64,000 nt of DNA from Sycon ciliatum (lineage: Eukaryota; Porifera; Calcarea; Leucosolenida; Sycettidae). The notes beneath the pieces were generated by a model, which ran no database searches, was not told where the DNA came from, and was given only the letters and a program-made list of their open reading frames with translations. How positions within the stretch are numbered: position 1 is the first letter of the stretch; the number at the start of each line of letters is the position of its first letter. Position numbers and translations under genes: made by a program. Below, in pieces: positions 54,898 to 63,967 of this stretch. Location: positions 32,759,517 to 32,823,516 of the forward strand of contig NC_088645.1 of assembly GCF_964019385.1 (NCBI RefSeq), given 5' to 3'.

Positions 54898-54988
54898 ATG
54901 TCTTCATCCGTCCCCTCCAATGGCTCTGTCCTCATTGCGCCGTCTAACTTTTACAACGTTCAGCAGCTGACAACTCGCCAGAAGGAAG
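54898..54988 (+). CDS. EF-hand/septin exon 1 (residues 1-31)
   Basis: MSSSVPSNGSVLIAPSNFYN then VQQLTTRQKE before GTGAGA, phase 1 out. The frame is open upstream to another ATG at 54787, so the start could be further left. I chose 54898 because the sequence from there is less biased and joins the EF-hand directly. Confidence 0.72.
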
Positions 54989-57900
54989 GTGAGAACACGA
55001 GGGGGTAACCGACTTCATGGGCTTGCCTCATTCTTCTTTATTTCTAGCTCAGAGGGTCGGACTTGTGGTACTGGCATGGCACTACTGATGGTACTACAGC
55101 CATCGAAATGCGTGGTTCTAGCCAGCCAGCCACGCTAGAGCTGTCGACATGTCGTTTTAGTAACTTTTACGACGTTATGATTTTTTCAGTACTTTTGAGA
55201 CGAGCGACTAAACAGACAGTGTCATTCAACTCGTGTAATAAATAACTCAACGGTAAGTCGCTGGATGAAGACGAGCTACTAGTAGTAGCTGCCAACCAGC
55301 GATCATTGAATGCGATGGTTAGCGGAAGTCGACGACGCGATTCTCTTGCCCCGTCGTTGACTTATAGCAGACTGCTGTGGAGGGGAAGTAAAATGCGCAC
55401 AACTAGTTACTTCACAAGATCGACTGTGGTAAAAAATCGTACAGAGTTTGTTCTTCACTGCCACTGCCTTCAGCTTCTCAGCGCCTTTCTTTTGTCGATC
55501 ATACTGTCTAGAGTACGTCGATTTGTCGGAGCAAAAGTCGATCAGACCATCCCCGCGCTTGTTGTGCGCCTGTGTTGTTTGTTGCTCAAGTACACGTGAG
55601 TTTTGCCGGTGCACGTGCACTTCACCACGGCAACACGACAAAACGGCTCGTGTTGATACAGCGCGGGAGGTAAACCTGCTCGTTTCTGTGTCTGACACCC
55701 AGTTTTGCCTATGCTTGGGGTCGTAAAACTCAGCGAGTAAACCATGGCAATGTCGAGTTCTGGGCTAGGTTTCCTTCCTCTGAATCCTGGGAACTCTCGT
55801 TTTGAGTTTGACACGGCGGGTGGGAAGAAATCTCTCTCAACGCTGCATACCAGAGCTGGAGACGAACGCTGCGAGCGATCTTGTTCAAGCGGGTCAGGTC
55901 GTTTTCTGATCGAATCGTCCTCAGTTCGGAGCTAGCAAGCTTGCCTTCTTTCTGGAGCTGTTTTTGCTGCTGTTTCTGCGAGGCTGCTGTTTCAATCTCG
56001 TTTCGCTCAGTCATGATTCTTGGAGTTCACTCCGCCGAGGGCTCAGAGCATGTTCCGCTGAAGGGTGCGGAAAGAGGTAAGCCTAGGCCCCCTTTCCGTC
56101 TTACCGTTCTGCTTGCTTATCTCTCCCGCGTGGAGAGGGAGCTACATGACTGTACTCTCCGTCTCGCTCTGTTCATTTCTTCGCGCGTCCTGAAAGCCAT
56201 CGTTGTTCCTATCCGCTGCGATAGCGTGGCCTAAACTAGGCTAAAGCGGACGTGTATGTCGATCGTTTTGACACGTACGGTGTGGTTGGAAAGTAAGTTA
56301 CGACTGTTTCGAAGACGAACTGCACTGTGCGTGCATCATTTGGTGCTCCGCTGCATGGCGGAGCGTAGCAGCTTCTGCTGTCTAGTATTTGATGCCGGGA
56401 AGAAAGTGTGCGTCTCCGGCAATTGTGACGGAGAATCGCGTGCCGTCCGTCAACTTTCTTTTCATATCCGCACGTGTGTGAGTTTAATTTCATTTCCTTG
56501 CACGAAGACTCTCTCGTTACTCCCTCCATCGACACGGCCCCAGGGAAAATGGTGTCGCTAGTTAGCGACTAGCGATCGATACCCAAGCGAAAGTTGGCGG
56601 GTGCGCAGCGTCTGATTCGCATAGTGAGCGGCCCGGAATGATTACGATTGTCGTCTTCACGAATCACACACTACACAGTGTCTGGTCTATGGAGAACTAA
56701 CCTTATTAGAACTATAACATTTTTTGAGGCTTTGTGTGTACGTTTGTGTTCTAGAACTCTGTACAGCATGTTCAGGGGCGTCGGAGGGTATTTTAGTGTG
56801 GTACGGTCACTCAGCCATGTGAAGTGCAATTTACTCGTAGGGGAGTGGTAACTGAGCCAACATTTTGGAATTTCAGATCCCAGATCAGTGTATTTTGTTG
56901 ATTCACGGGGTATCTGGGGCAAAAAGTGGTACGGTCAATACCGTAGTGACCGTACCGTGTGCGACGCCCCTGATGTTGGTGTAAATCAAGGATTGTTTTT
57001 GTTTTACTTCCAGTATTTAGCATCAAGAATGTAGCAAGTTCACACACATCTGAACAAGTAAAAAGTGAAAAGTCAAGAACACGAGGCATGCGGTATGCAT
57101 AGAGCACTGATCCGTACAACAATTGTTGTTGTATGCTACCAAGAGTAGATAAACAAGAGTGTGCAACTCTGCATCTCTTCTGCACAATCTGCTGATTGTG
57201 CCCATGGCGGAAATTTTTGTTCACGTCACCTTTTTCGGAAAACATGACGCGTGTGGTACAGAGCGGTATGAGAGCGCGTGCTGCGCACCGACCTTGTAAT
57301 GTAAAGCCCGGCCAAGTGCACGAGGCAAAACTTCGAGCGAGTGCGCCGGGGAAAGATTATGTCAACGAAAATTTCCGCCGTGGGCCAACCCATCCGTGAG
57401 TTGCACACTCCTGTTTATCTACTCTTGATGCTACCAAGAAATGTCCCCAATAATGTGTGCACGTTTTGCACAGAACCGATGACATCGTCTTTCTGGGCTT
57501 TGCTGGAAATTGGCGTTGTTCCAATGAAGCTGGCTGTGCAATGCGCATGCGCCTGGCCGAGTGACATGTGCAGGGGCCTGGGGGAAACAACTCACCTCTG
57601 TACGTTGCCCTGTTCTGTACGGCGTCGTTTTCCCTGGAGAGTGCTGTCGTGGCTGGTGTACAGTCAACGTAGTCCGGTCGCCACACCAGAGAATAGCCGT
57701 CATACGTACTACATAGTCAAGATAGGCAAACTGGCGGCTATGACTATGAGGTTGCCGGTGGTACGTTGTCACCACACCACGGACATGCTCCGGCACATTG
57801 TCACCACACCACAGATGTTCGAGCTACGCGGCCTACGCCCCTGGAGAGTGCGGCCGTGGCGTGTCTAAATGCTTGAGGGTCTACACCAATCCTGTGCGAA

Positions 57901-63900: not shown

Positions 63901-63967
63901 TCACTGCAAACACAGATCACGCAGAAAGCGCTCAAGCGTGGCTTTGAGTTCAATCTCATGGTAGTAG
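54898..63967 (+). CDS. EF-hand/septin fusion gene (5' part; continues off the edge)
   Basis: Three exons (54898-54988, 58035-58187, 63794-63967) join in phase to give 139 residues so far. Residues 29-93 look like a paired EF-hand: KEAFVRAFQEADTNDAGLVA, then EVQSRVDIRAHKGEVTFPDF followed by MEIM, closely following the calmodulin layout KEAF..D..G..I and ELQDMI..GTIDFPEF. Both loops are degenerate: loop 1 keeps D, N and G at positions 1, 3 and 6 but has Ala at 12; loop 2 lacks an acid at position 1. Ca2+ binding is therefore uncertain. After a linker, GTVGFDSLQTQITQKALKRG then FEFNLMVV is the start of a septin GTPase domain (SEPT2-group septins read VKRGFEFTLMVVG before the P-loop). Septins are filament-forming GTPases. 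The G1 motif and the rest lie beyond 64000. Confidence 0.85.
55730..56014 (-). other. Unassigned minus-strand open frame, possible nested exon
   Basis: Reads MTERNEIETAASQKQQQKQL then a Lys/Glu/Gln-rich, probably helical stretch to RLNKIARSVRLQLW, where GTATGC could act as a donor. Composition is protein-like up to that point and poor afterwards. I do not recognise it, and it may be chance. Confidence 0.25.
57140..57427. mobile_element. CAAGAG-family element, GATAAACA subtype, exact 7-bp duplication
   Basis: A 288-bp element starts CAAGAGTAGATAAACAAGAG and ends with its mirror. ATGCTAC flanks both sides (57133-57139 and 57428-57434). It is similar along its whole length to 42523-42833. Confidence 0.92.
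58035..58187 (+). CDS. EF-hand/septin exon 2 (residues 31-82)
   Basis: Acceptor CCACTGCAG, donor GTGAGG, phases 1 in and 1 out. It encodes most of the EF-hand pair: AFVRAFQEADTNDAGLVAVS, a hydrophobic helix IPNLVQQVLG, and QEVQSRVDIRAHK. Confidence 0.88.
58697..58885. mobile_element. pogo-like MITE, CAGTCAGACCTCG family
   Basis: A 189-bp element flanked by TA, in the opposite orientation to 29887-30074 and nearly identical to it. Confidence 0.93.
59651..60192. repeat. (CA)n microsatellite, about 540 bp
   Basis: An uninterrupted CA run of about 270 units. The real length may differ because such tracts assemble poorly. The long His/Thr and Cys/Val frames over it are artefacts. Confidence 0.98.
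60288..60576. mobile_element. Inverted-repeat element near the CA tract
   Basis: AGGCGATTCACAG is mirrored by CTGTGAATCGCCT, about 289 bp apart. The interior is rich in ACGTG and CTCGAG palindromes. Confidence 0.6.
60790..63095 (-). repeat. 522-bp tandem array of a mobile-element-like coding fragment
   Basis: On the minus strand, frames such as PLEQIVIDELHLMLRIMDVL, LLQQTMRLDKE and ACGVSFRVWEKTNADGSGSG repeat with a 522-bp period (starts at about 61011, 61533, 62055 and, after an extra 115-bp insert, 62692). Inside each unit a 116-bp segment is itself duplicated, and triplicated in the third unit. 522 is divisible by three but 116 is not, so frames break at every internal copy. From memory, DELHLMLR..DVL proteins occur as high-copy uncharacterised families in invertebrates, which suggests a mobile origin. 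Confidence 0.8.
63648..63771. repeat. (CT)n microsatellite before septin exon 3
   Basis: About 120 bp of CT repeats ending 23 nt before the exon 3 acceptor. Confidence 0.96.
63794..63967 (+). CDS. EF-hand/septin exon 3 (fusion-point exon, residues 82-139)
   Basis: Acceptor TGTGTAG, donor GTAAGC, phases 1 in and 1 out. The exon reads GEVTFPDFMEIM (end of the second EF-hand), a linker TETMSSTTQWGQLKTPLS, then GTVGFDSLQTQITQKALKRG and FEFNLMVV (septin). Both domains lie in one exon, so this is not an artefact of joining two genes. Confidence 0.9.

Follow-up and report, generated by a model that had tools for sequence, protein, structure and literature searches.

Septins of the human SEPT3 group are described, in the sections of PMC8640212 on which we draw, as having a hook-loop, an alpha-0 element with basic residues and no C-terminal coiled coil. 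In the same sections, mammalian septin N-termini are variable and mostly disordered except for the hook-loop and alpha-0, SEPT3-group subunits meet through their NC-interface at the centre of the octamer, and this interface has been seen in open, closed and shifted states, with alpha-0 thought to leave on closing (PMC8640212). Here we describe a gene of the calcareous sponge Sycon ciliatum whose product likewise has a hook-loop, a basic alpha-0 and a C-terminus free of a coiled coil and carries, upstream of them, a lobe related to an EF-hand pair. The 5' part of this gene occupies positions 54898-63967 of the 64,000-nucleotide stretch of contig NC_088645.1 that was analyzed (hereafter, the window); the P-loop exon lies beyond the window. 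Our joint best explanation, to which we assign a probability of about 0.62, is that the gene encodes a SEPT3-group septin composed of an EF-hand pair, a linker with an invariant Trp-Gly, a hook-loop, a polybasic alpha-0, a GTPase domain and a GESNI end, that this form is ancestral and lost its lobe on the vertebrate-tunicate line, and that the lobe serves for docking independently of calcium.

The three exons in the window join into one open frame of 139 residues, with GT donors at all three and AG acceptors at exons 2 and 3. From the ATG at 54898, exon 1 encodes the N-terminal portion (LTTRQKE) of the first EF helix; exon 2 (58035..58187) completes EF-hand 1 and adds the incoming helix of the second hand; and exon 3 supplies, in this order, the end of EF-hand 2, the Trp-Gly linker, the hook-loop, alpha-0 with its polybasic stretch and the start of the septin domain. 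All 139 residues (139/139) are identical to residues 1-139 of a 415-residue protein, P0003, named in its source "neuronal-specific septin-3-like isoform X2 [Sycon ciliatum]", whose cluster has members from NCBI, UniRef and EukProt. In P0003 the P-loop GESGMGKST follows from residue 140, so the exon after the window must encode it, and Pfam Septin (PF00735) matches residues 130-406 with an E-value of 3.9e-112. The original prediction, made from the window alone, had proposed that an EF-hand pair is fused to a septin and had looked to the next exon for a P-loop and to the N-terminus for an EF-hand profile match. The fusion is upheld by the in-phase exon joins and the identity to P0003, and the P-loop stands where it was expected; the profile match is weak in Pfam for the single sequence and strong for a 25-member family, as detailed below. 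Transcripts in which the exons stay apart, a further condition named in that prediction, are made unlikely by the annotated protein and by the fused frames found in other species.

Searches with the 139-residue query (candidate length 0.55-1.75x query) returned two proteins, both short fragments encoded by short frames on other contigs. P0001 repeats exon 3 (90% identity over 42% of the query) and P0002 repeats exon 2 (80% over 39%), and both stop, as judged by eye, at the same exon boundaries as exons 3 and 2 of the window. A lengthened query returned three proteins at E<=0.01 from 75 candidates, and a plasmid search with P0003, which is uninformative on animals, gave no match. An alternative first exon, with an ATG at 54337 followed by gtaagt, would by our reading be out of phase with exon 2 and is not claimed. 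Isoforms in a coral (P0011/P0029) and an anemone (P0019/P0027) diverge upstream of the LSKVF segment, near the position of the Sycon exon 1/2 junction; these differences suggest that first exons are used alternatively and that the position of the intron is old.

Sequence comparison establishes that the N-terminus is related to EF-hand pairs. On its own, the 139-residue window protein matches EF-hand_9 (1.1e-4) and EF-hand_7 (1.8e-4), both below the Pfam cut-offs, and centrin-1 (5.4e-9). A profile built from 25 of the 36 undecayed N-termini, picked by eye for variety, matched 412 PDB sequences at E<=1e-3; the best 60 of these, spanning 7.1e-23 to 5.4e-16, are a calmodulin-calcineurin fusion, radial spoke protein 7, centrins, calmodulins and calcium-binding protein 1. 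As a control, the reversed profile gave 12 matches at E<=1, the best at 0.084 and one, at 0.84, a calmodulin. Eight of the 25 members lying outside the sponge branch, other such members being omitted, gave a profile whose best match was 1.7e-13. Taken singly, 18 of the 25 match Pfam EF-hand_7 at E<=0.01. Precomputed domains assign an EF-hand family to P0005, P0007 and P0015, so through these three the architecture was already visible in databases.

By its sequence, the window gene is a SEPT3-group (SEPT3/9/12-type) septin. The ten best PDB chains for P0003 are named SEPT3, SEPT9 or SEPT12 and score 363-377 bits, versus 336 bits for SEPT7 and 323 bits for SEPT2; in PDB scores against all groups, P0003 is nearer to SEPT3/9/12 than to the SEPT2, 6 and 7 groups. 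The match of P0003 to 9bhw ends at residue 401, leaving a tail of 14 residues that, judged from its length, is too short for a C-terminal coiled coil. We take the PDB chains to be human or Ciona, in part from PMC8640212 and from entry mates named CiSeptin.

The lobe is widespread. In a profile search restricted to the N-terminus, 5896 candidates yielded 166 proteins at E<=1, of which the best 120 were examined. Among the matches listed, the named animals with the lobe include the sponges Sycon, Oscarella and Corticium; the cnidarians Acropora, Montipora, Pocillopora, Exaiptasia, Actinia, Nematostella, Hydra and Clytia; and the ctenophore Bolinopsis, amphioxus (Branchiostoma), the horseshoe crab Limulus and the sea cucumber Apostichopus. 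In the models from Tachypleus, Ixodes, Patiria and Anneissia, the linker is kept together with the last part of the lobe. The same architecture, which was to be sought in other genomes, thus recurs in SEPT3-group septins across several animal phyla and is no oddity of sponges, a correction to the original prediction. In four EukProt rows (P0059 and P0064-P0066), probably choanoflagellate to judge by how they are named, the lobe is present in a decayed form. A profile of these four N-termini gave 41 matches at E<=1, led by caltractin (6.4e-5) and two centrins (8e-4 and 1.2e-3) and followed by weaker EF-hand and unrelated proteins; against the animal profile it scored 98.7% probability, with a TT-x-WG end common to both. 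When the four N-termini were scanned against Pfam, no EF-hand family was matched at E<=1. By eye, no such N-terminus is present in the 56 rows from P0067 onward (fungal Cdc10-like, SEPT7-like and others), and the SEPT3-group rows P0072, P0076, P0085 and P0092 are without the lobe, through either loss or an incomplete frame.

The opposite end of the protein also shows a recurrent motif. The Sycon protein ends in GESNI, and an ESx[ILC] end (ESNI, ESKI, ESSL, ESRC or ESQI) occurs in 25 of the 51 proteins of at least 379 residues among P0003-P0066, including those from named sponges, anthozoans, chelicerates and echinoderms; the other 26, hydrozoan and ctenophore rows among them, are without it. 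In P0067-P0122 it is found in 3/56, all of them unfused SEPT3-group members. Ends of this kind look like class I PDZ ligands, though the likeness is weaker where Cys is the last residue. A literature search on septin and PDZ-binding motif gave, by title and among the matches listed, nothing on a C-terminus of this kind.

The history of the fusion was read from a tree of the GTPase domain alone, with 66 rows (38 of the 64 in P0003-P0066, 24 of the 56 in P0067-P0122, and 4 PDB chains), which contains SEPT7-like and Cdc10-like rows and no SEPT2- or SEPT6-group rows, and which was midpoint-rooted for drawing only. An animal SEPT3 group, with support of 96/91, holds 34 fused animal rows, the SEPT3/SEPT9/SEPT12 chains, the 9bhw SEPT3 chain and four unfused rows; three of the fused rows (P0057, P0058 and P0061) bear the lobe end and linker only. 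Within this group, cnidarian and bilaterian rows unite at 98/92 and bilaterian rows at 98/97, with SEPT3/9/12 inside the bilaterian branch. The label "fused" requires at least four changes on the tree, three of them forced by starred branches, and a single clade of the 34 fused animal rows is rejected by the approximately unbiased (AU) test at p 3.8e-5, for a set defined after the tree was seen and including the three rows with the lobe end only. Because the SEPT3/9/12 chains nest among fused proteins, the lobe looks ancestral and later lost. With the root placed outside the group, the simplest reading is that the animal SEPT3 group descends from a fused ancestor and that the lobe was lost both on the vertebrate-tunicate line and in the lineage of P0076, P0085 and P0092.

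The hook-loop adds a relative date. Its characteristic residue in P0003-P0066 is Phe in 50/64, Ile in 13/64 and Val in 1/64. The seven named rows with Ile are all bilaterian; P0024, from the sponge-like branch, is the exception. The change from Phe to Ile, a trait of the human SEPT3 group, is not seen in Sycon, which has VGF. This change thus probably preceded the loss of the lobe.

What might the lobe do? EF-hand proteins use calcium-free (apo) lobes to grip the helix of a partner, and by analogy the septin lobe could dock a partner helix without calcium. Since SEPT3-group subunits pair by the NC-interface in the middle of the octamer, a lobe would lie on either side of this midpoint, where the two could recruit a partner or influence the release of alpha-0. 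We consider a calcium-independent docking lobe, placed near the meeting of two SEPT3-group subunits, to be the most likely arrangement.

Several points weigh against this explanation. First, the docking partner and the octamer position in sponges are proposals, and the EF-hand fold is deduced from sequence. Second, in 13 of 14 pairs compared, conservation is lower in the lobe than in the GTPase domain (30% versus 70% identity for Sycon-Oscarella; 42% versus 67% for Nematostella-Branchiostoma), which would fit a loosely constrained appendage as well. Third, the nesting of SEPT3/9/12 assumes a root outside the animal SEPT3 group. Fourth, the decayed EukProt rows do not group together: three of the four stand beside Cdc10-like rows and the other stands alone, with weak support and long branches. 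Finally, the PDB chains are cut, and the absence of the lobe from full-length human SEPT3/9/12 is taken from the description of N-domains in the sections of PMC8640212 used here; no row named as a vertebrate SEPT3/9/12 appears in the best 120 of the 166 lobe-search matches, many of which are without names.

The main rival, which we think unlikely but the most serious of the alternatives, is that the lobe binds its own chain. Clamped onto the Trp-Gly linker, the hook-loop or alpha-0, it would act as an internal gate that keeps the SEPT3-SEPT3 NC-interface open or closed. The lobe ends ~17 residues before the hook-loop, and in an alignment of 45 members, chosen from the 64 proteins P0003-P0066 by omitting near-copies and rows cut at the N-terminus, and used for the EF-loop counts given here, Trp103 and Gly104 are invariant in 45/45. 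The 15-residue linker, moreover, surpasses the lobe in conservation in 11 of 14 pairs (73% versus 33% for Sycon-Nematostella; 47% versus 13% for m.116671-Sycon), and the mobility of SEPT3-group NC-interfaces, with alpha-0 thought to leave, would suit a gate (PMC8640212, same sections). However, the order is reversed in the remaining 3/14 pairs, and the linker could equally touch the GTPase domain or be an exposed site.

Less probable again is a lobe with no specific partner, either an appendage that aids folding or solubility or a remnant in decay. Its lower conservation relative to the GTPase domain and the four SEPT3-group rows that are without it would both fit such an element. But the EF-hand is still recognizable across phyla, and in the one exceptional pair, Nematostella-Acropora, the lobe (85% identical) is on a par with the GTPase domain (83%).

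We give slightly less weight still to the lobe as a calcium sensor that links calcium to septin filaments. In its favour, the Asp at position 1 of loop 1 is kept in 40/45 and position 12 of loop 2 is acidic (Asp or Glu) in 25/45, and P0005 has ligand-like residues at loop-1 positions 1, 3, 5 and 12. Against it, position 12 of loop 1 is Asp or Glu in only 3/45 and position 1 of loop 2 is Asp in only 1/45 (P0065). P0005 is the only member (1/45) with acceptable ligands at all four loop-1 positions, and calcium sensing is unlikely because loop 1 is without a complete set in the other 44/45. The Sycon protein does not have the canonical calcium ligands at loop positions 1, 3, 5 and 12; its loop 2 runs I-R-A-H-K-G-E-V-T-F-P-D, unless a 13-residue loop starting from Asp76 is allowed. 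Loop 2 was aligned with gaps, making its register less certain, and its positions 3 and 5 were judged by eye. Most likely, therefore, the lobe is calcium-independent in most species. The original prediction had called both loops degenerate, and the residue counts in the 45 aligned members agree; its suggestion that calcium is coupled to septin assembly finds no support in the loop residues. P0005, with the sole near-canonical first EF loop, forms one branch with P0024 in the sponge-like group (98/94).

The weakest alternative, that the fusion is a gene-model artefact in which prediction joined an EF-hand gene to a septin gene, draws on the window being genomic DNA only, with long introns and microsatellites between the exons, and we reject it as extremely improbable given the in-phase exons, the single exon (63794-63967) in which the EF pair ends and the septin begins, the identity to P0003 and the three sources of its cluster, the listing of fused proteins under names from several phyla, and the whole fused frames of P0006, P0007, P0015 and P0016 on contigs of 1307-1585 bases, most simply spliced transcripts.

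Beyond the calcium-independent docking lobe, a broader history can be sketched, which we hold tentatively and think more doubtful than not. The founding septin of the animal SEPT3/9/12 group, perhaps already in an ancestor shared with choanoflagellates, would have had a calcium-blind EF lobe that gated or decorated the SEPT3-SEPT3 interface in the middle of every octamer, together with a PDZ-ligand tail; vertebrates and tunicates would have lost the lobe after the bilaterian change of the hook-loop from Phe to Ile, and the disordered N-terminus of SEPT9 would have taken over recruitment. If this is true, the septins of vertebrate models are a derived, stripped form. In general, an old folded domain at a septin N-terminus would alter the picture of the central octamer subunit in early animals. 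The plasticity of the SEPT3-SEPT3 interface becomes testable in lobe-keeping animals with working genetics (Nematostella, Hydra and Clytia), and the lobe offers a folded handle for octamer structures.

A full-text literature search on septin and EF-hand, which covered neither subscription papers nor bioRxiv, gave no EF-hand-bearing septin by title and start of the abstract, and the pairing of "septins" with "EF-hand" led, by title and among the matches listed, to store-operated calcium entry or other subjects. PMC9145010, which came up repeatedly, has a single EF-hand passage, a cited title on ACF7, and the main texts of PMC11238149, PMC6323724, PMC8640212, PMC1931588 and PMC8801916 do not contain "EF-hand".

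Table 1. Features of the septin gene in the window, with positions counted from the first nucleotide of the window.
Feature	Position	Strand	Basis or remark
Exon 1, coding part (residues 1-30 and base 1 of codon 31)	54898..54988	+	GT donor, frame, identity to P0003
Exon 2 (remainder of codon 31 to base 1 of codon 82)	58035..58187	+	
EF loop 1, residues 40-51 (DTNDAGLVAVSA); Asp at position 1, Ala at position 12	58061..58096	+	coordinates counted from exon map
EF loop 2, first part, residues 77-81, in exon 2	58172-58186	+	exon map
Exon 3 (remainder of codon 82 to base 1 of codon 140)	63794..63967	+	
EF loop 2, second half, residues 83-88 (EVTFPD)	63796..63813	+	coordinates counted from exon map
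Trp-Gly, residues 103-104	63856..63861	+	invariant, 45/45 aligned members
Hook-loop VGF, residues 114-116	63889..63897	+	hook-loop as in section 7 of PMC8640212, the part used here
End of alpha-0 and start of septin GTPase domain, residues 129-139 (KRGFEFNLMVV)	63934..63966	+	frame, Pfam Septin

The introns of the gene and the remainder of the window hold a number of other features. Within the second intron lie a (CA) repeat of 271 units with 100% matches (59651-60192) and, at 61010-62925, four arrays of a 116-base unit in two or three copies each, ~520-640 bases apart; a minus-strand frame in this array region (61623-62180) has no Pfam match. A (TC) run (63647-63774) directly precedes exon 3. 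Upstream of the gene, a 34-bp satellite unit is common to two arrays, at 1-4358 and 25736-27889, in different register. An open frame at 42696-43286 (+) matches Rap_GAP (E 2e-12) and is probably part of an upstream gene, and an open frame of 847 codons at 35680-38220 (+) has no Pfam match at 1e-3.

The Sycon protein can be compared with four described kinds of protein. With calmodulin and centrin, the best sequence matches of its N-terminus, it has an EF-hand pair in common; unlike them, the septin version has one lobe only, is fused to a septin and has mostly lost the calcium ligands. Fungal Cdc10-type septins also came up in the N-terminal profile search, by way of the stretch that precedes the P-loop (e.g. 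P0067, P0069 and P0078), but they are without the EF-hand lobe, and Cdc10-like rows form their own branch (100/99). Metazoan SEPT7-type septins have the septin domain, hook-loop and alpha-0 in common with it, but show no EF-hand in the rows seen and likewise form their own branch (100/100). Closest are human SEPT3, SEPT9 and SEPT12, which by score and tree belong to the same GTPase-domain group. Human SEPT3-group proteins have Ile in the hook-loop, and their N-domains are described as mostly unstructured upstream of the hook-loop and alpha-0 (PMC8640212, in the sections cited above), whereas the Sycon protein has Phe in the former and an EF-hand lobe in place of the latter.

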